NCBI GenBank assembly: GCA_947074295.1
Contig: CAMTPC010000003.1
Span: forward strand, 1-64,000
DNA from: an uncultured Bacteroides sp.
GTDB lineage: Bacteria; Bacteroidota; Bacteroidia; Bacteroidales; Bacteroidaceae
Reading direction: 5' to 3'
Length of the DNA: 64,000 nt
In this document: positions 7,844 through 25,343 of the stretch, one piece after another
Numbering within the stretch: position 1 is the first letter of the stretch
Layout of the letters: every line of letters begins with the position of its first letter
Made by a program: the position numbers and the translations under genes
The notes under the pieces: generated by a model
Databases searched by the model: none
Told to the model about the DNA's origin: nothing
The model's input: the letters and a program-made list of their open reading frames with translations, nothing else

Positions 7844-10800
7844 ATGAAAAGATTGCACGGTATGAAATTAAGGTGTCTGCTGACATTAATCTGTCTTATA
7901 CCTATTCTTGCCTTTGGCCAGATACAAATACAGGGTGTGGTGACAGATGAAATCGGAGAGCCGATGATTGGAGTATCAGTTTTTGAAAAAGGAACCAGCA
8001 ATGGCACCATAACCGACCTTTTTGGAAATTATCAAATAACAGTTCCTCCTAAAAGTGTACTTGTATTTTCTTATGTAGGCTATAATGCAAAAGAACTCAA
8101 TGTACAAGGAAAAACAAAGTTGGACATTAACTTAGAACCTTCATCTCACGATTTGGATGAGGTAGTGGTTATCGCTTATGGACAACAAAAGAAGGTTACC
8201 ATCACGGGCTCAGTGTCCAATGTTAGTAGTGCTGAAATATTAAAGTCGCCAGCCGCATCGCTTGGTAATGCTATATCGGGTAAACTTCCAGGACTTTCGA
8301 CCGTCCAATACTCGGGTGTACCTGGTGCTGATGATCCTACTATATTTATCCGTGGGCAAGCCTCGCTCAATGGTTCAAGCCCTCTCGTACTTGTCGATGG
8401 TGTAGAAAGAAGCTTTACTCAGATTGACCCTAACGAAGTTGCTGATATTACGGTTCTGAAAGATGCCTCGGCTACAGCCGTATATGGTGTACGTGGAGCC
8501 AATGGCGTGATCTTAGTAACCACTAAGCGGGGTGAATCGGGTAAAACACAAATATCTGCATCTGCCTCATGGGGATTGCAAAAGGTGACCAAATTTCTCG
8601 ACTTTGCAGATTCCTATACGTATGCTACGGTTTTTAATAATGCCCGCTTGTCTGATGGCAATACACCGCGCTTTTCAGATGAGGTAGTGCAACATTTTCG
8701 TAATCAAGATCAACCATTGCTTTATCCCAATATCGATTGGATTGATTACATCATGAAGAATTCAGCCTTGCAGAGCCAATATAATATCTCGGTCAATGGT
8801 GGTAACAATATTGCTAAATATTTCGTTTCTGTAGGTATGCTCGATCAAGATGGCTTATTTAAGACATTTGGATCAGATAAAAACTCTAACTTTGCTTATC
8901 GCCGTTATAACTACCGTGCTAATCTTGACTTGAACATCGGTAAAATTCAAGAGCTTTCTATCAATCTTGGTGGCCGTGTCGAAAACAAACGTTCTATAGG
9001 AAATAATGGTGGAGATGACGGAGAGGAGTATATTTTTCGTTATCTGATGGACGCTCAGCCATTCTCAGGAGCAGGTATCGTTGATGGGCAATGGATTAAA
9101 ACCAATCCAGCTTATATTTCCTCAGAGTCAGCCGTAAGCTCGCGCGATGGTTTGGATACCTTCTATGGCCAAGGTTATAAACTATCTTCTACAAATGTGC
9201 TTAATATCGACCTTATTTACAAGCTGAAACTAGATTTCCTAACTAAAGGTCTTGACTTCCGTGTGAAAGGTTCGTACAACTCAACTTATTATCATGTTAA
9301 AAACCGCACGAACGGGAAGCCCGCTCAGTTCACGCCAATTATCAATACTGATGGCACAGTATCCCTACAACGTAGTGGCGATTACTGGAATTTGGGTTAT
9401 GATGAAAGTAGCTGGCCCAATAGAGATTGGTATGCAGAGGCAAGTATGAACTATGACCGTAAATTCGGAGATCATAGTGTGGCTGCACTGTTACTTTATA
9501 ATCAGTCAAAGAGTTATTATCCTTGGGATGCGGCAAATTCGGCATATATCTCAATACCCAAAGGATATGTAGGTCTGGTGGGACGTGTCACGTACAACTA
9601 TATGTTCAAGTATATGGCTGATTTCAATATTGGTTATAATGGCTCTGAAAACTTCGCCAAGGGCAATCGTTATGGATTCTTTCCTTCTATGTCTTTGGGC
9701 TGGACTGTTTCACAAGAGAAATTCTGGAAGCCATTGAGCAATGTTGTTTCTTATATGAAATTGCGTGGTTCGATAGGTACAGTAGGTAATGATAACTGCC
9801 AAGGCTACCGCTTCCTATACTTACCAGCAGCATGGCAAATCTTCAATGGTTATTATAATAATATTGGCGATTATGATGGGTACAATTTTGGTACTACCAA
9901 TGATATATTCCTGAATGTGGCTCGTGAATACTCTTCCGCATCGCCAGATGTAACATGGGAGACTGCAATAAAACAGAACTACGGTGTTGATATGAAATTC
10001 TTCGATGATAAGTTGAGTTTAAACTTTGACTACTTCTATGAATACCGTAAGGATATTCTAATCAATAATGAAAATATGATTCAAGCGCCTACGGCTCTTC
10101 GTCCTTCTTATATCAATTATGGTCGCGTTAAGAATCAGGGATATGAGATCACGTTGAATTATCGCACTAGCATTGGGCGCAATTTTTCGTTGTCTATCTC
10201 GCCAACACTGTCTTATGCAAAGAACAAAGTGTTGGAGCAAGCCGAAATACCTAAACCTGACAAATTAGTCATGGCCAATAGCTATATGGGACAGAAATTG
10301 GGTTTGACGGAAGATTCTCCAGTTGCACCAACATGGACTTATGCAACGGGTCATTCAATAGGAGCACGGAAAGGTTACCTCTTCTTTGAGTTTTACGAAC
10401 AAGGTAAAACAGAGGAAAGATATCAAGCCAAATATGGACAGCCAATGCCCACTCAACTTGTCAATACCTTGCTGAACGGAGATGCTGTTTATGTCGATTT
10501 GGATGGGGACGGTATCATTTCTGAAGAATACGATCAGATGTATATGGGATATACGGATAATCCTGAATATACCTTCTCGCTCAATATCTTCCTTCAATAC
10601 AAGAACTTTGACTTCACCATGTTGTGGTCAGGTGCAACGCATGTATCAAGAAATCTAGATGGTGTATACCGTCAGCCGTTCGGCCAGCAATACAACTCCT
10701 CATTGCTACAATGGGTTGCTGATAATGCTTGGACTCCCGAAAATGCCGCATCAGCTCGTTTGCCTCGTATCACATTTGCCAACGAGAAACAAAATCAAGC

Positions 10801-11050
10801 TACTTCGGATCTGTGGTATCAAGATGCGACATATATTCGCTTGAAGAATGTCGAGATGGGCTACACCTTGCGCAATCAGTCTTGGTTACCCAATTCATCA
10901 AATATTCGCTTTTATTTGAGTGGCACAAATCTGTTGACCTTTACACCGATGGATGCAAATGATCCAGAAAGTACAGGAGGTGGTTATGGATCATTTATTA
11001 AATACCCAGTTATGCGAGTGTTTAATCTAGGTGTAAAACTGAATTTTTAA
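7844..11050 (+). CDS. SusC-like TonB-dependent outer-membrane receptor (first pair)
   Basis: This 1068-residue SusC-family receptor imports oligosaccharides across the outer membrane with energy from TonB. Order of parts: signal peptide (about 1-25), carboxypeptidase-regulatory-like beta-sandwich (about 28-100), TonB box DEVVVIAYG (105-113), plug domain (about 118-230, with VLVDGVERS and VLKDASATAVYGVRGANGVILVTTKRG-like sequence), and a 22-strand-type barrel to a C-terminal aromatic strand ending in NLGVKLNF. A second in-frame ATG at Met7 is an alternative start. It is the first gene of the locus, 11 bases ahead of its SusD partner. The DNA shows no frameshift. Confidence 0.96.
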   Translation: MKRLHGMKLRCLLTLICLIPILAFGQIQIQGVVTDEIGEPMIGVSVFEKGTSNGTITDLFGNYQITVPPKSVLVFSYVGYNAKELNVQGKTKLDINLEPSSHDLDEVVVIAYGQQKKVTITGSVSNVSSAEILKSPAASLGNAISGKLPGLSTVQYSGVPGADDPTIFIRGQASLNGSSPLVLVDGVERSFTQIDPNEVADITVLKDASATAVYGVRGANGVILVTTKRGESGKTQISASASWGLQKVTKFLDFADSYTYATVFNNARLSDGNTPRFSDEVVQHFRNQDQPLLYPNIDWIDYIMKNSALQSQYNISVNGGNNIAKYFVSVGMLDQDGLFKTFGSDKNSNFAYRRYNYRANLDLNIGKIQELSINLGGRVENKRSIGNNGGDDGEEYIFRYLMDAQPFSGAGIVDGQWIKTNPAYISSESAVSSRDGLDTFYGQGYKLSSTNVLNIDLIYKLKLDFLTKGLDFRVKGSYNSTYYHVKNRTNGKPAQFTPIINTDGTVSLQRSGDYWNLGYDESSWPNRDWYAEASMNYDRKFGDHSVAALLLYNQSKSYYPWDAANSAYISIPKGYVGLVGRVTYNYMFKYMADFNIGYNGSENFAKGNRYGFFPSMSLGWTVSQEKFWKPLSNVVSYMKLRGSIGTVGNDNCQGYRFLYLPAAWQIFNGYYNNIGDYDGYNFGTTNDIFLNVAREYSSASPDVTWETAIKQNYGVDMKFFDDKLSLNFDYFYEYRKDILINNENMIQAPTALRPSYINYGRVKNQGYEITLNYRTSIGRNFSLSISPTLSYAKNKVLEQAEIPKPDKLVMANSYMGQKLGLTEDSPVAPTWTYATGHSIGARKGYLFFEFYEQGKTEERYQAKYGQPMPTQLVNTLLNGDAVYVDLDGDGIISEEYDQMYMGYTDNPEYTFSLNIFLQYKNFDFTMLWSGATHVSRNLDGVYRQPFGQQYNSSLLQWVADNAWTPENAASARLPRITFANEKQNQATSDLWYQDATYIRLKNVEMGYTLRNQSWLPNSSNIRFYLSGTNLLTFTPMDANDPESTGGGYGSFIKYPVMRVFNLGVKLNF

Positions 11051-11060
11051 ATAGATAATC

Positions 11061-13028
11061 ATGAAAAGAGTATACTATAAAGTCACGAGTTTATTATTTG
11101 CACTGAGCACTTTCCTCTTTATGGGATGTGTGGACAATATAAGAATGTGGGACGGCTTTCTGGACAAAGCAGAAGGCGAAGATGTTAATGAAGAATTGAT
11201 TTTTTCGAAAAAGGTATATACTGAATATCTGGTATGGCAGTGCTATGAAGGCTTGTATACACCATTCAAAAGTTGCTACACACTCAACTCGGGGGTAATG
11301 GAAGGTTTATCGGATTTGATTCATTCCGAGTTAGGATGGGATGATCTGGGCCGCTTGTTCTACACAGGAAACCTTACTGCCGCCAATGCCAATCCGGGTT
11401 GGGTGCAAAGCCGCTTTGCATTCATCACGCAAGGGGGTATTCAAAATATGAATAACACGGCTAAACGCTCCATCTGGAACTGTGTGCGCGATTGCCATCT
11501 ATTGATTGCTAATATTCACCGTGTACCCGATATGACTGATGCCGAAAAGGCGCTTTATACAGCCGAGTGTAAGATCATATTGGCCGCTAAATATTTGGAT
11601 GGTATTCGTCATTTCGGTGGTTTACCTATCGTCGACCGTGCATTCAAAGGTGATGAGCAGCTAGAGGAAGGTCGCTCATCGCTTGAAAAAACGGTAAATT
11701 ATGCTTTGAGCCTTCTCGATGAAGCGATTGCCGAACCACATTTGCCATGGCACATTGCCGATGCTGATATAGCTACATGGGCAGGCCGTGTGACCAAAGG
11801 CTCCGCTGTCGGTCTTAAAGCGAAACTGTTACACTATGTTGCTAGTCCTATATTTAATAATGCAACTCCATACTGCACGGAAGAACCACAAGATGCAGTA
11901 AATGAATTGCAAGTATGGTATGGCAACTATGACAGTCAACGTTGGCAAAACGTGATAGCTGCTTGCGAACAATTCATGCAACTCAATGCTCAAAATGGGA
12001 ACTATTATCAGTTGGTGCAAGCAACGGCGCAAAACGAAGAAGCCTATCGATTGGCTTTCCGCACGGCATATCGTTCTAGAGGCGACCGTGAAAAACTAAT
12101 TGAAGTGCGCGACCGGGTATACATGACCGAATGGGATCAGGCTCCAGCCAATGTTTGGCATGCTGGTGCATGTGCGGCCACTTTGGATTGGATGGAAATG
12201 TTTCCTTGGTCAGATGGTAAGAACTTTGATGGACAACAATACTATAATCAATCTCCCGCCGAGAAGGATATTTTTGTAGACCGTGATCCTCGCTTGTATG
12301 AAACGATGGTGGTACAAAAGCAAGATTATAAATTCCAGTACTATGGCTCAGGTAATCCGGTACAAATGTGGGAAGGCGGAGATTTTAAGGTAAGTGGAGG
12401 TGACTGGGCTTGTAAACCACATGGATTTCCTACCTATAAATTTGTGCTTGACTTAGGGTCTGATGACCAAGGTGGACAAGGTATAATCGATGATGAGCCA
12501 ATGCAGGTCTCTTACTTGCGAATGGCCGAACTACACCTCATTTATGCTGAGGCTTTAGCCGAGGTGGGCCGCAATGCAGAAGCCCTGGCGCAAGTTAATA
12601 TGGTACGTCGTCGCGTAGGGTTAGGCGACTTGGAAGTGAAAAATCCTTCATTGGCATTGACATCTAATAAAGAAAATCTGATTAATGAAATTCTCCGTGA
12701 GAGGGCTTGTGAACTAGGATTTGAGTGCGAAACGCGCTTTCATGATATGAATCGCCGTCTTTTAGTGGGCGATTTCAAGAAGCAGTTACGTGGGCTCAAA
12801 GTCTATCGATTGGACGAAAATGCTAATCGTGTGGAGAAGCCCTGGGATTCGACGAAGGAGTCTTTCCCTACAAAGTTCGAATATGTGCCTTATGAAATAA
12901 CTGGCGCTAATCCACGCTTCGTATGGAAAAACCCCGAACGTTGGTCCAACAAATGGATTCTTGCACCATTGCCGCCCGATGAAATCAATAAGAACTATGG
13001 CTTAACTCAAAATCCGGGTTGGTATTAA
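11061..13028 (+). CDS. SusD-like surface glycan-binding lipoprotein (first pair)
   Basis: This 655-residue RagB/SusD-family lipoprotein caps the SusC barrel and binds glycan at the cell surface. A lipobox ending at Cys23 (FLFMGC) follows a short hydrophobic signal. Family landmarks are the helical TPR-like repeats (AECKIILAAKYLDGIRHFGGLP region, about 175-195), the C-terminal block with LRMAELHLIYAEALAEVGR (about 490), ILRERACELGFECETRFHDMNR (about 550) and the terminal LAPLPPDEINKNYGLTQNPGWY. It is longer than many SusD proteins, mainly through loops in the middle. It follows its SusC by 10 bases, so the two are co-transcribed. Confidence 0.95.
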   Translation: MKRVYYKVTSLLFALSTFLFMGCVDNIRMWDGFLDKAEGEDVNEELIFSKKVYTEYLVWQCYEGLYTPFKSCYTLNSGVMEGLSDLIHSELGWDDLGRLFYTGNLTAANANPGWVQSRFAFITQGGIQNMNNTAKRSIWNCVRDCHLLIANIHRVPDMTDAEKALYTAECKIILAAKYLDGIRHFGGLPIVDRAFKGDEQLEEGRSSLEKTVNYALSLLDEAIAEPHLPWHIADADIATWAGRVTKGSAVGLKAKLLHYVASPIFNNATPYCTEEPQDAVNELQVWYGNYDSQRWQNVIAACEQFMQLNAQNGNYYQLVQATAQNEEAYRLAFRTAYRSRGDREKLIEVRDRVYMTEWDQAPANVWHAGACAATLDWMEMFPWSDGKNFDGQQYYNQSPAEKDIFVDRDPRLYETMVVQKQDYKFQYYGSGNPVQMWEGGDFKVSGGDWACKPHGFPTYKFVLDLGSDDQGGQGIIDDEPMQVSYLRMAELHLIYAEALAEVGRNAEALAQVNMVRRRVGLGDLEVKNPSLALTSNKENLINEILRERACELGFECETRFHDMNRRLLVGDFKKQLRGLKVYRLDENANRVEKPWDSTKESFPTKFEYVPYEITGANPRFVWKNPERWSNKWILAPLPPDEINKNYGLTQNPGWY

Positions 13029-13055
13029 TTAAGAATCTAAATTCAAAGAATCAGT

Positions 13056-15869
13056 ATGAAGAACTATAATATCATAAAGTCTACTTTAGTGGCATTGGGT
13101 ATTGCCATTGTACCACATATCTTGGCACAAGACACATTGATTGATTACGAAACAGGAACTGTCGATCTGGGACTGGGCGTTAAGCAAAGCCAACTGCTCA
13201 CTACAGCTTCTACATATACCGTCAGTGGCGAGGAGCTGAAGAAAACGGCTGCCCTGACATTGAAAGACGCTCTCTATGGCAAGTTGTTGGGGTTGACTGC
13301 CTTAAAAAAAGGAGGATCCTCTAGCGACTACGGATATGGAGCCACTATGAATGTGCGAGGTATTCAGTCGACTAGCGAAAACGGAGTCCTCATCTTGGTA
13401 GATGGCATTGAACGTTCTATTGACTATATGACTCTTGATGAGGTGGAGTCGGTGACAGTGTTAAAAGATGCTGCAGCAGTTGCGCTGTATGGATACGAAG
13501 GCGTCAACGGTGCTTTGTTGATAAAGACAAAACGAGGCACAGCCAATCAAAACAGGGTTACTGTATCCTACGACCATAAATTCACTTTTGATCCTAAAGT
13601 TACCGAATTTGTAGATGCTTACACCTATGCGCGTGCCGTCAATCAAGCGCGTGGTTATGATGGTTTGTCTGCCATGTACAATGACTACGAATTGAATGCA
13701 TTTGCATTAGGGTTGGATCCTTATTATTATCCAAACGTAAATTGGAAAGATGAGGTATTCAAAGGTAAAGGCTCGGAAGACAAAGCTAATATATCACTGA
13801 ATGGTGGCAATGACAAGGTACAGTATTTTGCCATGCTCGACTATACGGACAGTAGAGGGCTATTAAAAGGGACCGATCAAGAAAAGTATTCGTCACAACT
13901 CAAATTATCAAAAGCCAATATCCGTGCCAATCTGGACGTACAACTAACCAACTCGACAAGTATGCAAGTGAATGCCTCGGGTATTTTTGTTGAAACCAAT
14001 CGCCCAGCAGGAGCTACCGCAAACGATCTCGCATGGATGCTGTACAACACACCTGCATCTGCATTCCCGATCCTCAATGATCCAACAAGTGAATTGGCTG
14101 CAATCTGGGGTGGAAACACAGCCTATGGTGTGAACAATCCAGTGGCAAAGATTCAAGCATCTGGTTTTCAGAAAAGTCATTCTCGTGAATTTCAAGGAGA
14201 TGTTACACTGAAACAGAAATTCGATTTCTGGGTGGAAGGGTTGGAGCTGTCGGCACGTTTTGGCTATACCAACTTTGTAGAGATATATGAACAGAACTCT
14301 CTGGGTTATATGTATGGCTATCAGCGTTATGCTTTTGATAGTAATGGCATACCGATGAGTGTGACCAACTATACGGCTGGCGACAAAACCAATAATCTCA
14401 GCTACAGCTATTGGAACAATCAACATGTACGCTCATCTTATCTATCGTTGAGCGCCAATTATCAGACCACATTTACGGGCAATGATAACTTTATTGCATC
14501 TATGATTTGGCATCAAAAGCACCGTTCTTCTGATGGTCGCTACCAGACAATCAATCGGATGAACTATATCGCTTATTTGCATTATGATGTAAACCAGAAG
14601 TTCACTACCGATTTAGTATTGACGCTCAATGGTTCTAATCGTTCGTATCCACATAAATGGTCTTTTGCTCCTACATTATCGGTAGGCTATATCTTTAAGA
14701 ATAATGCAGAAGCAGCGGGTATTAACATGGCCAAATTGCGTGCTTCAGGCGGGATGCAGCACACTGATTATGTACCCATCAATGGTATATGGCTTGAAAA
14801 TTATAATGGCGGAGGTGGTGATTACTTCTTTGGAGCAGGTACAGGATCACAACAGTGGGGAACTTTTATCGGCTATATGCCCACATCCAACTTCAAGTTA
14901 GAGACTGCCTATAAAGCAAATGTCGGTATTGATATGAGATTATTCAGAAGTTTAGATCTCAATGTTGATGGTTACTATCAGCTTCGAGATAATATATTGC
15001 TTTCGGGCGATGGACTCAACTCGATGGTAGTGGGTATACCTTCATCCTATATCAATTGGGGAAAAGTAGCTAGCTACGGCGTAGAAGCAGGAGTGAACTG
15101 GGTGAAAAATGTAGCATCAAACTCTTCCATAAATATTGGCGCAAACGTTACTTGGGGCCGGAACAAGATTTTGCGTACAATAGAAAATGTGGCCTATGAC
15201 TACCTGTCAGCTGTTGGTGGTCGTGTCAATCAGGCATGGGGCTTGCAAACCAATGGTTTCTTCGGGAGCATAGCAGATGTAAATTCATCGTTGCCACAAG
15301 AGTTTGATATTTGCAAACCAGGTGATATTAAGTATGTAGACTATAATAAAGATGGAAGCATCAATGAGAATGACCGTATAAAAATGGGTTATGACACGGC
15401 TTTCCCTGAGTTAAACTTCTCTCTCAATCTTGGTTTCCGTATCAAAGGGTTTGGTATAAATGCACAGCTACAAGGTGCGGCACACTATACACAATACTGT
15501 GGAGTGACAGGTGTATACACCCCACTGATTGATGGTGCTAATCTCTCGAAACACTATTATGAGAACTCATGGGGAGTAAGTGAGAATCCTACTTATCCAC
15601 GCCTTACTACCAAAGCCAATAATAACAACTACCGTGAAAACGATTTGTGGTATAAGGATATAAACTTCCTGAAACTACGTAGCTGCGAGGCTTACTACTT
15701 CTTCCCCGAATCGGTTATCTCAAAGATAAAACTCTCTCAGCTCAAATTGTTCGTAAAAGGCGAAAATCTCTTTACACTGAGCAATATGAAAGAGATGGAT
15801 CCGGAGAATATCGGCACGGTTTATCCTACTTTGAAAGGTGTCGCACTAGGCCTTTCATTCATGTTCTAA
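13056..15869 (+). CDS. SusC-like TonB-dependent receptor lacking the N-terminal regulatory-like domain (second pair)
   Basis: This 937-residue SusC-family receptor has an unusual N-terminus. After a signal peptide (about 1-24) only about 20 residues precede the plug. The CarboxypepD-regulatory-like sandwich present in the first SusC is absent, and the segment TVDLGLGVKQ (35-44) stands where the TonB box EVVVIAYGQQ would be. The plug (about 48-161) is well conserved, with LILVDGIER and VTVLKDAAAVALYGYEGVNG, and the barrel ends in an aromatic C-terminal strand (GVALGLSFMF). It probably forms a second import pore with the following SusD, perhaps for longer or differently linked mannan fragments (inference). 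It starts 27 bases after the first SusD. Confidence 0.93.
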   Translation: MKNYNIIKSTLVALGIAIVPHILAQDTLIDYETGTVDLGLGVKQSQLLTTASTYTVSGEELKKTAALTLKDALYGKLLGLTALKKGGSSSDYGYGATMNVRGIQSTSENGVLILVDGIERSIDYMTLDEVESVTVLKDAAAVALYGYEGVNGALLIKTKRGTANQNRVTVSYDHKFTFDPKVTEFVDAYTYARAVNQARGYDGLSAMYNDYELNAFALGLDPYYYPNVNWKDEVFKGKGSEDKANISLNGGNDKVQYFAMLDYTDSRGLLKGTDQEKYSSQLKLSKANIRANLDVQLTNSTSMQVNASGIFVETNRPAGATANDLAWMLYNTPASAFPILNDPTSELAAIWGGNTAYGVNNPVAKIQASGFQKSHSREFQGDVTLKQKFDFWVEGLELSARFGYTNFVEIYEQNSLGYMYGYQRYAFDSNGIPMSVTNYTAGDKTNNLSYSYWNNQHVRSSYLSLSANYQTTFTGNDNFIASMIWHQKHRSSDGRYQTINRMNYIAYLHYDVNQKFTTDLVLTLNGSNRSYPHKWSFAPTLSVGYIFKNNAEAAGINMAKLRASGGMQHTDYVPINGIWLENYNGGGGDYFFGAGTGSQQWGTFIGYMPTSNFKLETAYKANVGIDMRLFRSLDLNVDGYYQLRDNILLSGDGLNSMVVGIPSSYINWGKVASYGVEAGVNWVKNVASNSSINIGANVTWGRNKILRTIENVAYDYLSAVGGRVNQAWGLQTNGFFGSIADVNSSLPQEFDICKPGDIKYVDYNKDGSINENDRIKMGYDTAFPELNFSLNLGFRIKGFGINAQLQGAAHYTQYCGVTGVYTPLIDGANLSKHYYENSWGVSENPTYPRLTTKANNNNYRENDLWYKDINFLKLRSCEAYYFFPESVISKIKLSQLKLFVKGENLFTLSNMKEMDPENIGTVYPTLKGVALGLSFMF

Positions 15870-15889
15870 CTTTTACTTAACTGACAGAT

Positions 15890-17590
15890 ATGAGACTATT
15901 AAATAAGATACTTACAGGTATGGCTGTGCTGGTGTTAGCGGCAAGTTGTGTCGATCTAAACTATACAGAAGTAACTACTAATGATGAGGATTGGATCTAT
16001 AAAAGTCCTCTTTATGGTATCCAGCAGTTGGTGACTAGCGTCTATGCGCGCCTTCCCAATGGCTTCGACAAAAACTATGAAGGTGGAAGTGGATCTACTT
16101 TAGCTGCAGCTACTGATGAGGCTGATTGCGCCATCTCAACTTCTAGTGTTCACCGGTTTTATAATGGAGGGTGGAGCCCCAATAATCCCTTCTATTTTAC
16201 TTGGGAGAATTCATACAAAGCGATAGCCGAAGCCAATACATTTTTGGAGAAACTCGATCAAATAGACCTTTCGGCCTATCAGCACAATAGTGACTATGAG
16301 GCGATGAAGACCAAATTTGAACTCTTCGAATACGAAGTACGTTTCTTGCGAGCTTACTTTTACTTCGAACTGGCGCGCACGTACGGGGATATACCATTTG
16401 CTTTGCGCTCATTAACCAATACGGAGGCCAACAACATCGTGCAGACACCTGCCATTGCCGTGTTCGATTGGGTTGCGAACGAGATGGACTTGATTGCTGG
16501 ATACCTTCCTATCACTCATACTACAGAGCTAAGTAAGGAGATCGGACGTGCTACTCGACCTATGTGTTTGGCATTGAAAGCTCGCACGCTTCTCTATAAA
16601 GCATCACCACTATTTAATACGCTCAATCGTAAAGAGTGGTGGTTGGACGCAGCCCGCGCCAATTATGAAGTCATTCGCCGCTCTGCTGCATGGGGAATTA
16701 AACTTGATGAGTACAACAAAATATGGGGAGCTAGTAATGGGGATGGTGTAGAAGTGATTTTTGCTTCCAAACAAGGTTCGCTCAATAGCTGGGAGACCTA
16801 TAATTATCCAGTGGGTGTAGAGAACGGTAATTCAGGAATGTGCCCTACACAAAGTCTGGTTGATGCGTACGAATATCAAGACGATTCACGCTCGTTTGGA
16901 GAGCGCTTCCCGAATAGCACTATCAATTTAATGACAGAGAGGCCTTATGATGGTATTGATCCACGATTCAATATGACCGTAGTGCGGAATGGTGATATGT
17001 GGCCCAATTACAATACACGTCCCATAGAGACGTTTGAAGGAGGTGTCAATGCTCAGCCTTTATTGAACGCAACACAAACAGGTTATTACCTGAAAAAGTA
17101 CTGTGATGCAAACGTCAATATCTCTACTAACAATGCTACCACCACTCCACATGCTTGGATCATGATGCGTCTAGGCGAGTTTTATCTCAATTATGCCGAA
17201 GCGATGTATCGCTATTATGGAGATGCCGAAACAACAGGCGAATTTGAATTGAGCGCCAATGCTGCGATAAATGCGCTAAGAGATCGCGATGATGTACAAA
17301 TGCCCCATTGGACAGGAACATCGGCTGACTGGGAGGCGCGTTATAAACGCGAACGAATGGTGGAACTAGCTTTTGAAAATCATCGCTTCTGGGACATACG
17401 TCGTTGGAGGGCTGGTGAAGAAGCATCTAGTGTCGGCTATGCCAAACTCACCAAAGAGTTCAATGGCACTGTAACGCTTACGCGCTACGATGCTCAACGC
17501 AGGTGGGACGATAAGTTCTATTTCTTCCCTATTCCTTTCAGCGAGTTAAACAAGAATCCTAACCTGCGCCAAAATGCGGGATGGAATTGA
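15890..17590 (+). CDS. SusD-like surface glycan-binding lipoprotein (second pair)
   Basis: This is a 566-residue RagB/SusD-family lipoprotein with a lipobox ending at Cys20 (VLAASC). Visible family elements are RFLRAYFYFELARTYGDIPFALR (about 150-172), LALKARTLLYKASPLFN (about 228), WIMMRLGEFYLNYAEAMYRYYG (about 424) and the C-terminal ERMVELAFENHRFWDIRRWR and FFPIPFSELNKNPNLRQNAGW. Length is normal for the family. It directly follows the second SusC (20 bases) and should form the lid of that receptor. Its sequence differs clearly from the first SusD, so the two pairs are not a recent duplication. Confidence 0.95.
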   Translation: MRLLNKILTGMAVLVLAASCVDLNYTEVTTNDEDWIYKSPLYGIQQLVTSVYARLPNGFDKNYEGGSGSTLAAATDEADCAISTSSVHRFYNGGWSPNNPFYFTWENSYKAIAEANTFLEKLDQIDLSAYQHNSDYEAMKTKFELFEYEVRFLRAYFYFELARTYGDIPFALRSLTNTEANNIVQTPAIAVFDWVANEMDLIAGYLPITHTTELSKEIGRATRPMCLALKARTLLYKASPLFNTLNRKEWWLDAARANYEVIRRSAAWGIKLDEYNKIWGASNGDGVEVIFASKQGSLNSWETYNYPVGVENGNSGMCPTQSLVDAYEYQDDSRSFGERFPNSTINLMTERPYDGIDPRFNMTVVRNGDMWPNYNTRPIETFEGGVNAQPLLNATQTGYYLKKYCDANVNISTNNATTTPHAWIMMRLGEFYLNYAEAMYRYYGDAETTGEFELSANAAINALRDRDDVQMPHWTGTSADWEARYKRERMVELAFENHRFWDIRRWRAGEEASSVGYAKLTKEFNGTVTLTRYDAQRRWDDKFYFFPIPFSELNKNPNLRQNAGWN

Positions 17591-17608: not shown

Positions 17609-19120
17609 ATGAAACTAATCTATAAATCACTGCTGTTTACAGCTTTCAGTGCATCGCTGTTATTTAGTTTTTCTTCGTGCAAAGGTGAGCAAGAAGAAAT
17701 GAATGCCACTACATCTATTGCTGCTATTTACCCCACTGTGGTGATGGAAGGCACAACGCTTCAAGTCACCGGATCGGGACTTGACAAAACGCTTCGCGTA
17801 ATCTTTCCGGGAGAGAAAGCTGCTGAATATGTAGAGTCAAAAGGGGAGCAATTGTTATTGGTGAAAGTCCCTGCTGACATAAGCTCGGAAGAGGCTCCAT
17901 TGGTCATTATCACACCAACAGGCGAAGTGGTGAGTCGACAAACGTTACGCAAGGCAGCCCCACGAATCAACTATTTTATTCCTGCCCAAGAAGTGGCAAC
18001 CTATAATGAACTTTCAATCGTTGGCTATGACTTTCTTTTAGCCGAAGCGGTTCGTCTTGATAATGGTGAGAAGCAAATGCTTATCGAAGCGATGGATTTC
18101 CAACGCAAATCGAATACCGAAATAAAGATTAAGCTTCCAGCCGATGCACCTATAGGCAATACGGTAACCATATCAGCACTCTTTGCCCATCAAGTAGAGG
18201 TTGAGCTTGGTGTCATGTCTATCATTAAGGGCGAAGGTGGTGGTCACTGGGTAGAGTCAGAACAAGTCATATATAACGGTGAGCCCAAGAATATTGGTTC
18301 ATGGGACAATCTGATGATTGCTAAGGAAAGTTTTGCTAAGGCAAAAGTGGATGATGTTATTCGAGTATATATAGATGAAGCAGGTGACTCACCACAAGGT
18401 GCACTAAAATCGCCTACAGGCAACTGGGATGGTTTGACAGACGAGCTGGGCTGCTTCGACATCACTCCAAGTGATATCGCTGCTGGTTATTATGATTGTG
18501 CAATAGCAAATCAAGAAGTGGTAGATAAACTGCTGAATCATGGCCTAGTCATTAGTGGGCAGAATTATACTGTAGTAAAAGTCTCTCTGTTTACATCAGT
18601 TTGGATTGAAGATAATACGGATGGTGACTCTACTGACCCTATTACAGAGCATACTATTATTTTGAACGATTTTGAGCAGATAGGCGACCATAACAGTAGC
18701 TGGGATCATAGCTGGACCGATTCTGAAGCGACTGAATTTATTGTTGATGAAAAGGGTAATACCTATATGTATATAGCAAAAGATCTCTCGGGTGATAGCT
18801 GGGTGATTAACTGTAATCACGTAGATAGGGGGGAAGTGAAGAATGTTGAGAACTACGAAATAAAACTTGATATAAAGATTGACGAAGGCGCTACTGGCCT
18901 CTCTTCGGCTACTATGCAGTTTGTAATTGCCGACAACTGGTGTTGGGTAGGTGAAAACTTCTTCCCCGAAACCACAGGAGGTAAATGGATTACTATTCGT
19001 TTCGATGCAGCCAATTGGTTGTCGGGCGACCTCACAATAGGTAATATCACATGTGGCTTGTTTGGTAAAGGCATTCCAGCAGGCATTAGTATAGATAACT
19101 TTAGACTTGATCCCAAATAA
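17609..19120 (+). CDS. TIG-domain surface glycan-binding lipoprotein (SusE/SGBP position)
   Basis: This 503-residue lipoprotein has Cys24 after FSFSS. Residues about 34-115 form an IPT/TIG-like Ig fold (IAAIYPTVVMEGTTLQVTGS), and a second Ig-like unit covers about 118-205. A beta-rich domain with DDVIRVYIDEAG lies at about 230-335, and the C-terminal module at about 347-503 begins ILNDFEQIGDHNSSWDHSW and ends GISIDNFRLDPK. The last two parts resemble those of the next protein. By place (right after SusC/SusD) and build it is a surface glycan-binding protein that holds mannan for the GH26 enzyme and the SusC complexes (inference). Aromatic residues in the C-terminal module could be the sugar-stacking platform. 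Confidence 0.8.
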   Translation: MKLIYKSLLFTAFSASLLFSFSSCKGEQEEMNATTSIAAIYPTVVMEGTTLQVTGSGLDKTLRVIFPGEKAAEYVESKGEQLLLVKVPADISSEEAPLVIITPTGEVVSRQTLRKAAPRINYFIPAQEVATYNELSIVGYDFLLAEAVRLDNGEKQMLIEAMDFQRKSNTEIKIKLPADAPIGNTVTISALFAHQVEVELGVMSIIKGEGGGHWVESEQVIYNGEPKNIGSWDNLMIAKESFAKAKVDDVIRVYIDEAGDSPQGALKSPTGNWDGLTDELGCFDITPSDIAAGYYDCAIANQEVVDKLLNHGLVISGQNYTVVKVSLFTSVWIEDNTDGDSTDPITEHTIILNDFEQIGDHNSSWDHSWTDSEATEFIVDEKGNTYMYIAKDLSGDSWVINCNHVDRGEVKNVENYEIKLDIKIDEGATGLSSATMQFVIADNWCWVGENFFPETTGGKWITIRFDAANWLSGDLTIGNITCGLFGKGIPAGISIDNFRLDPK

Positions 19121-19153
19121 TCTAATTATAATTTTTATTCACACTAACAATTA

Positions 19154-20965
19154 ATGAGTATGAGAAAAACACATTTTTCTACGATGGCTGTAGCAGCAGT
19201 GCTTGCCACCTCTTGTAATGACAACGTTGATATGATGATTCAGAATCATCGAGTGGAAGCCCAAATATCGGCAAGTGTTCTAGGTAGAACTAGGGTACTT
19301 GATACAATATGGGAGGCTAATGACATGATCGGGGTTTTTGTGAAGTCACCTTCGTCAGAAGGCGTGTTTCGCAATGCCAACGTACCCTATTATACTCCTG
19401 ATGCTTCTGGAGGATTCTTGGCCGTTTCAGAGAAAATCTATTTTCCACAGGATGATGAAGCGGTAGATTTTATGGCTTATTACCCCTATAGTAGCGACAA
19501 TGTAAGTGAAGGTAAATATAGCTTTGATCTTGCAGCCAATATTCCTTTGTCTGAAAAGGATTTGATGTATGCCACTGTAGAAGGACACTCACAGCAGGAT
19601 GGCACTGTTCCATTTCAATTCAGTCATATGTTGAGTAAAATAGAGGTGCAGCTGAAAAGCGATAGCAAGGTGTTGTCTGGAGCAGCGATCTCTATTAATA
19701 ATCAGTGTGATTTAGGTGTTTTTGATGTTTTTGACGGATCTGTTGCTGCTTCTAGTCTAGCCACGTTCGACAACGAATTGTTTTTTGAGGAACGCGAAAG
19801 TGCCGGGCAATATCATGTGATAGTAATGCCTACTGATCAAACGCTGGGACGTGATATTATAATAGTAGTCGATGGTAAGACCTATACGACTCCACTTGAT
19901 CCTACTTACACCTATGATTCAGGGCATAAATATAGCTTCACAATAACAATGAAAGGTATTGATAAAGACCCTGAAAATGTTGAAATAGTGATAACGCTGG
20001 ATATTAATGACTGGATAGATGGTCCGGAGGTTTCTTTGGAAGGAAGTGAAAATATTCCAGATGTGACAGGGAAAAAAGAGAATATCCTTATTTCTAGTGC
20101 AGAGGTTTTATCAGACACTCCTTTGTTAGTCGCGGCTGACCAACTAGAAGGTCTTAGTATAGGTGATGTTATTTGCCTTTATTACCAAAAAGATTTAGAT
20201 ACAGAGGCTACGGTTAATATTAATATGCCAACTACTACACGCAGCATCAATTCGCGCAACTATACTTTGACCACAGGAACAACTGCAGGGCGTATTGGTG
20301 TTGCTATAGATGATGCCGAAACATTGGCCTTTTTTGCGGCGGGTATGAGCATTACAGGAGCAGATGTGACTTTGACTTGCCTTTCTATTTACTCTAACAC
20401 ATTGGGCGTAAATACTAGTGAAGATGGAGAACAAACTGATAGTACAGATGCGACCACAGATCCTCTTACTGCGAATACCATTATGCTTATTGATTTCGAA
20501 CCTGGTGATGATCACGGTGCTAGTTGGGATAAGAGTTGGACTCTTGATACTGCTACTGTGCCAGAAGAAGAGGATGGCAATACCTATATGCGTTTGGTGG
20601 AATCCATTGCTGATGGATGGATTTTCAATTGCAATCATCAGACTATTCAAACGGTACATGGCATCGAGAATTATATGGTCAAATTTGACGTTCGTATTGA
20701 TGCAGGTGTGACAGGCGCATCGGCTGCAGGAGGTCAATACGTCATTGCTGACAAGTGGTTGTGGGTAGGTGTTGGTTTTCTGCCTGAAACTACTAATGGC
20801 AAATGGATTACTGTGTCGCATAGAATATCAGAACTCAATGCAGACCTTATAGGCGATTTAAACTTTGTAGATGAGGAAAATGCAGTGCGTGGTAATGGTA
20901 TTAGTGCTACAAATGTACCTGCCGGTATCAGTTTTGACAATTTACGTCTCGAACCTATCGAATAA
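19154..20965 (+). CDS. Fimbrillin-like domain fused to surface glycan-binding C-terminus, lipoprotein
   Basis: This 603-residue lipoprotein has Cys21 after VLATS (Cys19 if the nearby Met3 is the start). The N-terminal part (about 30-270) reads as a fimbrillin family (Mfa-like) domain: a WEANDMIGVFV segment, YFPQDDEAVDFMAYYPY, and FQFSHMLSKIEVQLKS. After ITLDINDWIDG it changes to a beta-rich region (about 297-425, GDVICLYYQKDL to TLTCLSIYS) and a C-terminal module (about 441-603, DFEPGDDHGASWDKSW to GISFDNLRLEP). Both resemble the matching regions of the preceding lipoprotein. It therefore looks like a glycan-binding protein whose stalk is a fimbrillin-type domain in place of TIG repeats. Binding mannan is inference from context. 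Confidence 0.75.
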   Translation: MSMRKTHFSTMAVAAVLATSCNDNVDMMIQNHRVEAQISASVLGRTRVLDTIWEANDMIGVFVKSPSSEGVFRNANVPYYTPDASGGFLAVSEKIYFPQDDEAVDFMAYYPYSSDNVSEGKYSFDLAANIPLSEKDLMYATVEGHSQQDGTVPFQFSHMLSKIEVQLKSDSKVLSGAAISINNQCDLGVFDVFDGSVAASSLATFDNELFFEERESAGQYHVIVMPTDQTLGRDIIIVVDGKTYTTPLDPTYTYDSGHKYSFTITMKGIDKDPENVEIVITLDINDWIDGPEVSLEGSENIPDVTGKKENILISSAEVLSDTPLLVAADQLEGLSIGDVICLYYQKDLDTEATVNINMPTTTRSINSRNYTLTTGTTAGRIGVAIDDAETLAFFAAGMSITGADVTLTCLSIYSNTLGVNTSEDGEQTDSTDATTDPLTANTIMLIDFEPGDDHGASWDKSWTLDTATVPEEEDGNTYMRLVESIADGWIFNCNHQTIQTVHGIENYMVKFDVRIDAGVTGASAAGGQYVIADKWLWVGVGFLPETTNGKWITVSHRISELNADLIGDLNFVDEENAVRGNGISATNVPAGISFDNLRLEPIE

Positions 20966-21071: not shown

Positions 21072-22406
21072 ATGAAGAATCTATTTTTTTCTTTTTCACT
21101 GCTATTGAGCTTGCTTTTATTGGTTTCTTGTAAGGAGACTGACGAGATAACTATAACGGGGCAACCCATGCGTCTACAATCTATGTCTCCCGCTGTTGAT
21201 AGTCAACTCTATCCCGGTAACATCATTGTCTCATTTGAGTTTGACCAACCTATTTGGCTCTCAGACAAGTCTAAGATTACTGTGAATGGTACTTCTACTA
21301 TTTCGGTAGCTGCAGTAGGCAGTAAAGTGCTTGTCAATGTCGACGCAAGAGCTGGTCAATCATACCGCGTCATGCTTGCTAAGGAAAGTTTGCAGACTTT
21401 AGGGGGCATGGTATCAAGCGAAGACTATGTATTGACTTTTGAGGTGAGTGCAGCAATGGATAAGTCACCCGAAGCTGTGAATCTGATGAACTTCATGGAA
21501 GAAAACTTCGGAAAAAAAATGATATCGGGAGTTATGGCTAATGATTCATGGAATATAAATGGTGCTATATGGGTGTATCAGCAGACGGGTAAATGGCCTG
21601 CCATGAATGGCTTCGATTATATGCATTTACCCAACTCTGCTCCTGGTAGCTGGATTGACTATTCGGACATTGCGGTGGTGCAAGAGTGGTGGAACAACAA
21701 TGGACTGGTGACAGGTATGTGGCACTGGGAGGTTCCGCTATACGAAGGTAGCTCCGATTATAATAGTAACCCCGATAAAACCAATTTTGATATAACCAAG
21801 GCTGTAACACCTGGTACGTATGAGTATGGAGTGGTGATGGCAGATATGAATAAAGTGGCCGACTATCTTTTGCTGTTGAAGCAAGCTAACATTCCTGTGC
21901 TATGGAGACCACTGCACGAAGCGGCGGGAGGATGGTTCTGGTGGGGAGCAAAAGATGCTGAATCTTGTAAAACTCTGTGGCGTATGATGTTCGATCTATT
22001 TAAAGAGAAAGGACTGAACAACTTGATTTGGGTGTGGACCTACGAGCCCGTTGGTGGAAACGATTGGTATCCGGGCGATGCCTATGTAGATGCAGTAGGT
22101 AGAGATAATTATAAGACCTATACGGAATCTATATTTGTAGATGAGTACGAGTTGATGAAGCGCTTATATCCCACGAAGCTCATTGCTCTGAGCGAGTGTG
22201 GTAGCGTATCGGATATAGGTGCGCAGTGGAATGCAGGTGCTTTGTGGTCATGGTTCATGACTTGGTATGATTATGACCGTACTTCCGATCCATCATCGGC
22301 GGAATTTCAGAAACCCGACCATATGCATGCCGATCAGTCATGGTGGATGCAAGCATTTAGCCATCCAGATGTAATTTCTAGAGAAGATATGCCGTCATTA
22401 AAATAA
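21072..22406 (+). CDS. GH26 endo-beta-1,4-mannanase, surface lipoprotein
   Basis: This 444-residue enzyme has a lipobox ending at Cys20 (LLVSC), so it is likely displayed on the cell surface or anchored in the outer membrane. Residues about 30-130 form an Ig-like beta-sandwich (PAVDSQLYPGNIIVSFEFDQPI), followed by the GH26 barrel from about residue 145. The acid/base is Glu283 in WRPLHEAAGGWFWWG and the nucleophile is Glu375 in LIALSECGSV, both in family-typical settings. Other GH26 markers are GLVTGMWHWEVP and NNLIWVWTYEP. It should cleave internal beta-1,4-mannosidic bonds in mannan or glucomannan, giving oligosaccharides for the two SusC/SusD pairs. Other GH26 activities are known (xylanase, lichenase), so substrate is inferred. 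Confidence 0.9.
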   Translation: MKNLFFSFSLLLSLLLLVSCKETDEITITGQPMRLQSMSPAVDSQLYPGNIIVSFEFDQPIWLSDKSKITVNGTSTISVAAVGSKVLVNVDARAGQSYRVMLAKESLQTLGGMVSSEDYVLTFEVSAAMDKSPEAVNLMNFMEENFGKKMISGVMANDSWNINGAIWVYQQTGKWPAMNGFDYMHLPNSAPGSWIDYSDIAVVQEWWNNNGLVTGMWHWEVPLYEGSSDYNSNPDKTNFDITKAVTPGTYEYGVVMADMNKVADYLLLLKQANIPVLWRPLHEAAGGWFWWGAKDAESCKTLWRMMFDLFKEKGLNNLIWVWTYEPVGGNDWYPGDAYVDAVGRDNYKTYTESIFVDEYELMKRLYPTKLIALSECGSVSDIGAQWNAGALWSWFMTWYDYDRTSDPSSAEFQKPDHMHADQSWWMQAFSHPDVISREDMPSLK

Positions 22407-22496: not shown

Positions 22497-25343
22497 ATGA
22501 AAAACGTTATTTATCTACTCTTTTTCTGGGTGATTGGGAGCTCTTTCTCTATATCTGCCCAATCTGCTCAATACCGAAACACTATTGACCTCAGTGGTGA
22601 ATGGCAATTTGCTTTGGATTCTATGAATCAAGGAGTTTTGCAAGATTATCCTAATCATTTTTTGGATGATAAAGTGCTGCTGCCAGGAACAACCGACACC
22701 AACCGTAAAGGCAAGCCCAATACGAATAGAAATGAAACTACACAACTTTCGCGTTATTATACATACGTCGGACCAGCCTGGTATAGCAAGGAGGTGACTA
22801 TTCCCAAAGATTGGAAAAACAGGAAAATCTCTCTTTTCTTGGAGCGCACACGCCCATCTACGCTATGGGTGGATGGCGTTTTAATCGATAGTTGTGCCTA
22901 TCTTTCATCTCCACATCAGTATGATTTAAGTGAAGTACTCACGCCAGGCAAGCACCGCTTGACGCTTCGAGTGGATAATGGGGAAAGCATTCCGTCGCAG
23001 ATACGGAGTAGTTCGCACGCCTGTACAGAATCCACACAAACCAACTGGAATGGTATTATCGGAAGACTAGAACTGCAAGCCACCAATTCGCTTTCTATCG
23101 AGGCTATTCGGCTTTACCCGATGGTGGAAGATCGTGCTGTGAAGGCTGTTATCACACTATCGCAAGAGCAGAAACTGAAAGGAAAGAGGTTGAGGCTTCA
23201 GGCCTCTGCTTTTAACACAGAGCAAATGCATGATGTAGAGCCTTTAGAAATCTCTCTTCAGAATGGACAACGTATTTATGAGGTAGTCTATCCTTTAACA
23301 GACTCCATAAAACTGTGGAGTGAATATGACCCTGCACTCTACCGCTTGACAGCTACAATCCCAGGTATAGATGAGGTAAGCGAAATCTTTGGTATGCGCC
23401 ATTTTAGTGTCATCGATAAACAGTTTGCCATCAATGGGCAAACTACCTTCCTGCGTGGTAAGCACGATGCTTGTGTGTTTCCACTTACTGGACATACCGC
23501 TATGGACAAAGACGAGTGGCGACGCTATTTTCGCATCTGTAAAGAATATGGATTGAATCATTGCCGCTTTCATTCTTGGTGTCCACCCAAGGCTTGTTTT
23601 GAGGCAGCTGACTTAGAAGGCATCTATTTACAGCCCGAATTGCCTATATGGGGCGCATTCAGCAAGGATACGCCCGAATTGATGGACTTCCTAAAAGCCG
23701 ATGGAGAACAATTGCTGAAGTCCTACAGTAATCACCCCTCTTTTGTGATGTTTGCCTTGGGCAATGAACTCTGGGGAGAAAAAGCATTGTTGGCTGAGTT
23801 TGTCGATCACTTTCGTGCTGTAGAGCCGCGGCATCATTATGCTTATGGATCTAATATCTATCTAGGGTGGGAGGGACATCTCCCTGGCGAAGATTTTTTG
23901 GTGACTTGTCGTGTAGGTGGTGGCGAAGGATATAGCACCCATGCACGCGCCTCTTTCTCGTTTGCCGATGCCGAAGAAGGTGGCTACCTCAATAATACTT
24001 ATCCCAATACCAAGATGAACTTTGACAACGCATTGGTGCACTCCCCAGTCCCCGTGATAGGACACGAAACGGGGCAGTTCCAGATTTATCCCAACTATAA
24101 GGAGATGGACAAGTATACAGGTGTATTGGCGCCTTGGAATTTTGAGGAGTTTCAGCGTAGACTGCACGAGAAAGGTATGGGTGGCCAGGCTGAAGATTTC
24201 TTAAAAGCGTCGGGTGCATGGTCCGTGGAGCTATATCGTGCTGATATTGAGATGAACCTTCGCACTGCTAAGATGGCGGGATTCCAACTCCTCGATTTAC
24301 AAGACTACCCTGGACAAGGCTCGGCCTATGTGGGAGTGCTCGATGCTTTTATGGATAGTAAAGACTTGATAGGACCTCAGGAATGGCGCCAGTTTTGTTC
24401 GGCTGTGGTACCACTGCTTACGATGTCGCGCTACTGCTGGAGCAGTAGAGATACGCTGCGTGTTGATGTGCAGTTGGCAAACTATGGTAATCAGTTTTTG
24501 GCGGGTAAGTTCATGAGATGGGCATTGCAAATAGATGATCGAACACTGAATGCAGGAGAACTAGTGATACCCAGCGGGCGCGGCTTGCTAGGTGTTGGCA
24601 CTTTAGAACTGCCTTTGAGTGATGTCGAAGGAGCAACAAAAGCTATATTGACCCTGCAAGTCGAGGACACTGAATATACGAATAGTTATCCGCTCTGGAT
24701 CTATCCCGAACAGATACAACCGCTATGGGGAGATGTTTACTTATCTTCCGAACTAGACGAAAAGACAATGGGTGCATTGGCTGCTGGCGGCCGCGTATTG
24801 TTAATCCCTCAAGCTGATAGTTGCAGGGATGTGACAATGGGGGCGCTCTTCCAAACTGACTATTGGAATTACCGAATGTTCAAGACGATATGCCAGAATG
24901 CCAACAAACCTGTCTCTCCTGGCACATTGGGTTTGTTGACTGATCCTCAGCATCCGATATTTGCGTCCTTCCCGACAGAATCTCACACCAACTGGCAATG
25001 GTATCCTTTATTGAAAGTCAGTTATCCGTTGATATTAGATGAGCTCTCAAATCAATATCTTCCTATCGTACAAATCATCGACAATGTGGAGCGCAATCAT
25101 AAACTCGGTCTGATCTTCGAATTCAACATAGCTGGTGGTCGGTTGTTGGTTTGCATGGCCGATCTTTTACAAACTACAAATACTCCTGAGGGAAAGCAGT
25201 TGCTGTGCAGCCTTTTAGATTATATGAATTCCGCTGCATTTCATCCAACCTGCAATATGGATAAAGATCAACTAGAACATCTCTTTTTACCTGCCGTTCG
25301 GCAAGAAGAGATAAAGACTTTACACAACATTTCTTACGACTGA
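22497..25343 (+). CDS. GH2 family exo-glycosidase, probable beta-mannosidase
   Basis: This is a 948-residue periplasmic enzyme with signal peptide MKNVIYLLFFWVIGSSFSISAQ and no lipobox. It has a GH2 jelly-roll (about 25-200, IDLSGEWQFALD and SLFLERTRPSTLWVDG), an Ig-like domain (about 200-305), and a catalytic barrel (about 310-590) with acid/base Glu424 in FALGNELWG and nucleophile Glu524 in VIGHETGQ. A long C-terminal beta region (about 600-948) ends the protein. GH2 includes beta-galactosidases, beta-mannosidases and beta-glucuronidases. Beta-mannosidase is inferred from the GH26 partner. It would trim oligosaccharides after import. It is the last gene of the locus, 90 bases after GH26. 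Confidence 0.85.
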   Translation: MKNVIYLLFFWVIGSSFSISAQSAQYRNTIDLSGEWQFALDSMNQGVLQDYPNHFLDDKVLLPGTTDTNRKGKPNTNRNETTQLSRYYTYVGPAWYSKEVTIPKDWKNRKISLFLERTRPSTLWVDGVLIDSCAYLSSPHQYDLSEVLTPGKHRLTLRVDNGESIPSQIRSSSHACTESTQTNWNGIIGRLELQATNSLSIEAIRLYPMVEDRAVKAVITLSQEQKLKGKRLRLQASAFNTEQMHDVEPLEISLQNGQRIYEVVYPLTDSIKLWSEYDPALYRLTATIPGIDEVSEIFGMRHFSVIDKQFAINGQTTFLRGKHDACVFPLTGHTAMDKDEWRRYFRICKEYGLNHCRFHSWCPPKACFEAADLEGIYLQPELPIWGAFSKDTPELMDFLKADGEQLLKSYSNHPSFVMFALGNELWGEKALLAEFVDHFRAVEPRHHYAYGSNIYLGWEGHLPGEDFLVTCRVGGGEGYSTHARASFSFADAEEGGYLNNTYPNTKMNFDNALVHSPVPVIGHETGQFQIYPNYKEMDKYTGVLAPWNFEEFQRRLHEKGMGGQAEDFLKASGAWSVELYRADIEMNLRTAKMAGFQLLDLQDYPGQGSAYVGVLDAFMDSKDLIGPQEWRQFCSAVVPLLTMSRYCWSSRDTLRVDVQLANYGNQFLAGKFMRWALQIDDRTLNAGELVIPSGRGLLGVGTLELPLSDVEGATKAILTLQVEDTEYTNSYPLWIYPEQIQPLWGDVYLSSELDEKTMGALAAGGRVLLIPQADSCRDVTMGALFQTDYWNYRMFKTICQNANKPVSPGTLGLLTDPQHPIFASFPTESHTNWQWYPLLKVSYPLILDELSNQYLPIVQIIDNVERNHKLGLIFEFNIAGGRLLVCMADLLQTTNTPEGKQLLCSLLDYMNSAAFHPTCNMDKDQLEHLFLPAVRQEEIKTLHNISYD

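Follow-up and report, generated by a model that had tools for sequence, protein, structure and literature searches.

Genomic context of two neighbouring lipoproteins

The window analysed here, a stretch of 64,000 nucleotides of contig CAMTPC010000003.1 from an uncultured Bacteroides sp. (assembly GCA_947074295.1, a draft of 231 contigs and 88% completeness), encodes two neighbouring predicted lipoproteins, P1 and P2, in a mannan-type polysaccharide utilisation locus (PUL) that also contains a regulator, two SusC/SusD pairs, and genes of glycoside hydrolase families 26 and 2 (GH26 and GH2). P1 is an ordinary surface glycan-binding protein (SGBP) of the SGBP-B type, composed of a TIG/Ig stalk, a middle domain and a C-terminal module (C-module). 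P2, in which a fimbrillin domain takes the place of that stalk, is probably a surface-anchored, mannan-binding SGBP that stands beside P1 in one beta-mannan PUL. The original prediction, read from the letters alone, had described two adjacent proteins with similar C-terminal parts and different N-termini, and both open reading frames, of 503 and 603 residues, lie exactly where it had placed them:

17609-19120, + strand: P1, SGBP-B-like lipoprotein, 503 residues (open reading frame; fold match to 6E57, E 4e-16)
17711-18226, + strand: P1 stalk of TIG/Ig-like repeats, residues 35-206 (structure model; Foldseek matches to plexin and MET IPT; Pfam TIG in the syntenic homologue L036)
18242-18613, + strand: P1 middle domain, CBM112-like, residues 212-335 (profile match to a GH26-intercalated domain)
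18632-19117, + strand: P1 C-terminal glycan-binding module (predicted), residues 342-503 (SGBP_B_XBD, 6e-5; alignment A6)
19154-20965, + strand: P2, probable fimbrillin-stalked SGBP, 603 residues (open reading frame; orthologues in L035, 74%, and L077, 60%)
19253-20017, + strand: P2 Mfa_like_1 (fimbrillin) domain, residues 34-288, with R47 at 19292-19294 (Pfam, 4K4K, model)
20063-20407, + strand: P2 middle domain, a Trp-less beta-sandwich, residues 304-418 (profile match, no Trp, purifying selection)
20414-20464, + strand: P2 linker, acidic and variable (41% identity to L035 versus ~76% elsewhere)
20459-20962, + strand: P2 C-terminal glycan-binding module (predicted), residues 436-603 (SGBP_B_XBD, 2.2e-6; 50% identity to the P1 module)

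P2 lies between P1 and the GH26 gene on one strand, with intergenic gaps of 33 bp and 106 bp. The two lipoproteins occupy the SusD-adjacent position of SGBP and SusE-positioned genes within PULs, as is also the case in L035/L076 and L077, and each has a predicted lipoprotein start, read from the sequence, with acidic residues after the cysteine (C24-KGEQEE in P1, C21-NDNVD in P2). The remaining genes of the PUL are as follows:

3388-7416, - strand: PUL regulator of the hybrid two-component type (one chain combining sensor, kinase, receiver and an AraC-type helix-turn-helix, assigned by eye from the translation)
7844-13028, + strand: first SusC/SusD pair (7844-11050 and 11061-13028)
13056-17590, + strand: second SusC/SusD pair (13056-15869 and 15890-17590)
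21072-22406, + strand: GH26 endo-beta-mannanase gene, the next 3' of P2 (Pfam Glyco_hydro_26, 7.3e-54)
22497-25343, + strand: GH2 exo-glycosidase gene (Pfam GH2 domains)

The regulator has a full-length match (34%) to a homologue located in PUL L048, and the genes downstream of GH2 are housekeeping genes, including adenylosuccinate lyase and pseudouridine synthase. The SusC/SusD pairs stand in tandem at 7844-17590, an order also seen in all eight other syntenic loci, and the second SusC is without the N-terminal CarboxypepD_reg domain that Pfam finds in the first. The GH2 gene has a long match below cut-off to the exo-beta-1,4-galactosidase BT4151 family (776 bits versus a cut-off of 1500).

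Domain architecture of P1 and P2

We assign P1 to the ordinary SGBP-B proteins because the best fold match of its model is 6E57, the SGBP-B of a mixed-linkage glucan locus, followed by other SGBPs and by IPT/TIG domains from plexin and MET, which also agrees with the TIG/Ig repeats originally read in its N-terminus. P1 is similar to known SGBP-B proteins (BoSGBP-B, 6E57; Bacova_02650, 5E7G; PF18329) throughout. P2 shares with P1 and these proteins the lipoprotein position after SusD, a beta-sandwich stalk and the family of the C-terminal binding module, but where they have the Ig stalk it carries a fimbrillin domain followed by a Trp-less sandwich; an Ig/TIG-type stalk, usual in characterised SGBP-B although no strict criterion for an SGBP, is present in P1, whereas P2 carries Mfa_like_1 instead. 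Searches of PDB sequences with P1 and with a C-module profile gave no match, and the structural assignment of P1 therefore rests on fold and Pfam.

The C-terminal modules of the two proteins are homologous, as had been proposed. P1 and P2 align at 42% identity over 227 residues (BLASTP, E 8e-46), mostly within a module of ~165 residues, and the modules alone reach a local score of 385, against a mean of 33 and a maximum of 58 for shuffled sequences. The Pfam family SGBP_B_XBD (PF18329) matches P2 above the cut-off and P1 just under it, with matches of 6e-8 to 1.5e-7 in three homologues. SWDxSW, NCNH, DNW and GKW are near-invariant across 12 homologues, and Trp residues at alignment positions 26, 30, 57, 103 and 119 (W458, W462, W489, W535 and W551 of P2) are invariant or nearly so in the same sequences.

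The modules might instead recognise a different glycan, such as xyloglucan or mixed-linkage glucan, like the founding SGBP_B_XBD proteins. The family is named for xyloglucan binding and 6E57, the best fold match, belongs to a mixed-linkage glucan system, both of which would be consistent with this specificity. We regard it as very improbable, however, given that GH26 lies beside the module in eight of nine syntenic PULs and that the other module of P1 is CBM112-like. GH26 enzymes are mostly beta-mannanases (PMC13357471), and the mannan setting named in the original prediction is in keeping with this GH26 context.

The middle domains of P1 and P2 have different histories. That of P1 is homologous to a domain that interrupts the chain of certain GH26 mannanases, ~570 residues long, midway (E 1.3e-26, 41% identity); these enzymes were taken as BcWH2-type from their architecture, size and 44-residue Trp spacing. 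For CBM112, a carbohydrate-binding module (CBM) of BcWH2_GH26 and Bu_GH26, mannan binding is experimental and W257 and W301 are essential; SGBPs bearing CBM112 have already been proposed (PMC13357471). The P1 domain has equivalents of both essential Trp residues, but differs from CBM112 in a Cys at the position of Tyr310 and in the second binding module that follows it. W232 and W273 of P1 are 41 residues apart, as opposed to 44 in both L070 and L051, a homologue of P1, and the spacing in L070 is exactly that of CBM112 (44, then Tyr nine residues later).

The P2 middle domain is a sandwich distantly related to CBM112 with no Trp whatever, Trp being absent from all three orthologues. In profile-profile comparisons, its closest relatives are the middle domains of other fimbrillin-stalked proteins (1.6e-7), versus 3.6e-5 (probability 71%) for the P1 middle domain. 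Pairwise, the score between the P1 and P2 domains was reached by 14 of 500 shuffles, and both have the same predicted order of strands and helices. These comparisons suggest that any kinship of the two domains is distant at best, each having its own nearest neighbours, and that what P1 and P2 truly share is the C-module of ~165 residues and not the last 270-300 residues that had been aligned at first. Because the P2 middle domain travels with fimbrillin, whereas that of P1 is CBM112-like and of other origin, P2 is best read as a unit of fimbrillin and Trp-less sandwich fused to a C-module, with the joint after the middle domain. The module exchange of the original prediction thus stands in that a fimbrillin fold forms the N-terminal part of a predicted PUL glycan-binding protein, but the joint is displaced; the comparisons of the middle domains led us to reject a direct fusion of fimbrillin to a P1-like middle domain and C-module.

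The fimbrillin domain and pilus assembly

Residues 46-287 of P2 match the full Mfa_like_1 model (Pfam, 1.1e-46), and the N-terminus matches PDB 4K4K by sequence (6.9e-24) and by fold (1.5e-22, TMt 0.83), in accordance with the fimbrillin-like fold first suggested for it. Neither of the two outcomes that would have overturned the original prediction, an N-terminus of another kind or unlike C-terminal regions, was therefore observed. The domain was modelled with a predicted local confidence (pLDDT) of ~90, and its next fold matches after 4K4K were Bacteroides pilin-like proteins, Mfa3 and FimA. This model was built on alignment A5, from which C-module rows were left out; the mixed alignments A1, A3 and A4 were rejected, as truncated fimbrillin rows landed on the C-module.

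P2 resembles type V pilins (4K4K, BACUNI_00621; 3UFI; FimA, 6JZK) in its complete domain, lipoprotein start and Arg after the first strand, and type V tip pilins likewise bear C-terminal ligand-binding domains. It differs from them in being embedded in a PUL, without pilin genes nearby, and in the two extra domains after its fimbrillin domain. A type V stalk pilin inserts the C-terminal end of its fimbrillin domain into the preceding subunit. In P2, this domain is followed by 315 residues and there is no free C-terminal donor strand; its operon has no stalk or anchor pilin genes, and P2 is the only Mfa_like_1 match on contig C3. Polymerisation in the manner of a stalk pilin is therefore unlikely, since two more domains follow the fimbrillin C-terminal end, and of the pilus-like display originally envisaged there is left only a display at a pilus tip.

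As a type V tip pilin, P2 would be cleaved after Arg47 and lose its first strand, and the groove would take the C-terminal strand of a stalk pilin encoded elsewhere, placing a mannan-binding module at the tip of the pilus. R47 is near-invariant and lies between the first strands, in a loop modelled with low confidence, and elsewhere in the genome there are 14 more Mfa_like_1 stretches, of which several are clustered and ~310-390 residues long. Mfa domains fused to enzymes, nucleases among them, retain the Arg just as well, however; no pilin gene was found near P2 in the window, L035 or L077, and for four other PUL-encoded proteins with the fimbrillin and middle domains the stretch read contained no further Mfa gene. 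Peptidase_C11 was not found in the genome either, a weak point in an assembly of this completeness. We consider a tip pilin unlikely. If P2 were one, growth on mannan would switch on a cleavable fimbrillin that caps a type V pilus and displays the module far from the cell, linking nutrient-induced utilisation loci to pilus-borne capture of fibre.

Distribution and conservation

The order SusCD1-SusCD2-P1-GH26 was found in the window, L076 (on the same contig as L035), L077, L051, L078, L079, L080 and L036; L038 has SusCD1-SusCD2-P1 in common, and GH26 was not seen in the stretch read. P2 is present in three of these nine syntenic PULs (the window, L076/L035 and L077) and cleanly absent from the same site in the other six (L051, L078, L079, L080, L036 and L038). 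In loci lacking P2, GH26 follows P1 directly, for example after 55 bp in L051 and 7 bp in L078.

P2 could be a duplicate of P1 that is redundant or in decay and has no role of its own, in line with its absence from most syntenic PULs and with the homology of the C-modules. Several results argue against this interpretation. In the C-module tree, P2 falls in a supported clade of its own, outside the clade uniting P1 with L051, a placement that speaks against P1 having been duplicated recently; a recent copying of the P1 C-module into P2 was rejected on the same tree. The N-terminus and middle domain of P2 are unrelated to, or distant from, those of P1. The gene is kept in three genomes, and the ratio of nonsynonymous to synonymous substitution rates (dN/dS) between the window and L035 was ~0.1 in all three P2 domains and ~1 in the short linker, rough values with dS near saturation that indicate purifying selection on the domains. 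A duplicate of this kind seems most improbable.

Searched with a profile of the Trp-less middle domain, 399 genomes of the family gave matches in six, and in all six the protein joined this domain to Mfa_like_1; one of them, G894, was not in the profile build. The surroundings of four of the five other such proteins (L047, L048, L049 and L050) were read by Pfam, and all four are PUL-resident: L006/L047, L009/L048 and L010/L049 are in xyloglucan-type PULs with GH95, GH3, GH5 or fucosidase genes, and L008/L050 is in a mannan-type PUL with two GH26 genes and a GH130 gene. In G894, the gene adjoins two GH26-like genes, as identified by BLAST to the GH26 of the window. No second Mfa_like_1 gene was found near the five proteins in the stretches read, by similarity to the P2 domain. 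Their C-terminal ends differ: G894 has a CBM112-like module with Trp (E 7e-11), the xyloglucan-associated proteins have two more sandwich repeats, and P2 has the XBD-type module. Judging from these sequences, the swap of C-terminal binding ends on a fimbrillin and sandwich unit recurs across bacteria.

Probable fimbrillin-stalked glycan capture

The reading of P2 as a surface-anchored, mannan-binding SGBP with a fimbrillin stalk is favoured by its GH26 PUL context, its position, its conservation and purifying selection, the fold-confirmed stalks, the invariant Trp residues of the C-module and the PUL residence of related proteins. It also draws on the experimental mannan binding of CBM112 (PMC13357471) and of the SGBP that has the SusE position in a B. 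ovatus mannan PUL and binds galacto- and glucomannan (PMC5217682). The SusE-positioned Bacova_02094 of the B. ovatus galactomannan PUL, whose mannan binding was demonstrated by affinity electrophoresis (PMC5217682), resembles P2 in its position in a GH26 PUL; it differs in having 391 residues and in being the sole SusE-positioned protein of its PUL. Three points weigh on the other side. The P2 C-module was poorly modelled, with pLDDT <50 over much of its length, because the alignment gave only three sequences there; the sugar specificity of the C-modules, whose binding is predicted, is read solely from neighbouring genes; and P2 and its relatives keep an Arg at the pilin-processing position.

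P1 would be bivalent, with an Ig stalk and two binding sites, one CBM112-type and the other a C-terminal SGBP_B_XBD-type module, whereas P2 would be monovalent, its fimbrillin and Trp-less sandwich replacing the Ig stalk and holding one XBD-type module off the membrane. In this proposed division of labour, both proteins would catch mannan chains at the cell surface, P2 on a differently shaped arm, and would supply them to the mannanase of family GH26 and to the SusCD transporters.

Those SGBP-B proteins to which structural matches were found have Ig-type stalks, and our search of the open-access literature for fimbrillin with PULs or surface glycan-binding proteins found no description of a fimbrillin-stalked SGBP; a fimbrillin stalk for SGBPs of hemicellulose loci, with exchangeable ends, looks new. 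That a fimbrillin and sandwich stalk recurs with such ends (XBD-type, CBM112-like and further sandwiches) in loci for both mannan and xyloglucan suggests that a pilus-subunit fold serves Bacteroidota in building proteins for glycan capture, and that among the fimbrillins annotated in gut genomes some bind nutrients. P2 offers a concrete case for asking whether such proteins are lipid-anchored or processed like pilins.

Other fimbrillin-containing proteins and a second mannan cluster

Fimbrillin domains are common, not exceptional, as the N-terminal part of larger proteins: among the 150 best-scoring Mfa_like_1 stretches listed, from 26 Bacteroides genomes, 90 lay in frames of at least 450 residues. 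Other partners of Mfa_like_1 were SusF_SusE, nucleases, pectate lyase and Fib_succ_major, with fusions to non-specific nuclease, pectate-lyase-like and Fib_succ_major domains in L019, L025, L039, L040 and L004. In genome G136 (L033/L054, 7017-8621), a SusC/SusD/SusE locus that also contains a Melibiase_C gene encodes Mfa_like_1 with SusF_SusE modules after it, a candidate for another fimbrillin-stalked glycan-binding protein. An orphan protein of 615 residues among housekeeping genes of genome G126 (L007/L046, 7812-9659) begins with a divergent domain resembling fimbrillin, to which the profile match is weak, continues with a CBM112-like middle and ends in the C-module known from P1 and P2; it is possibly the product of a second, separate fimbrillin exchange. 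The host genome itself has a second mannan cluster, L081 on contig C109, where a GH26 gene with an inserted CBM112-type domain (5446-7164) adjoins GH26-like and SusD-like genes.
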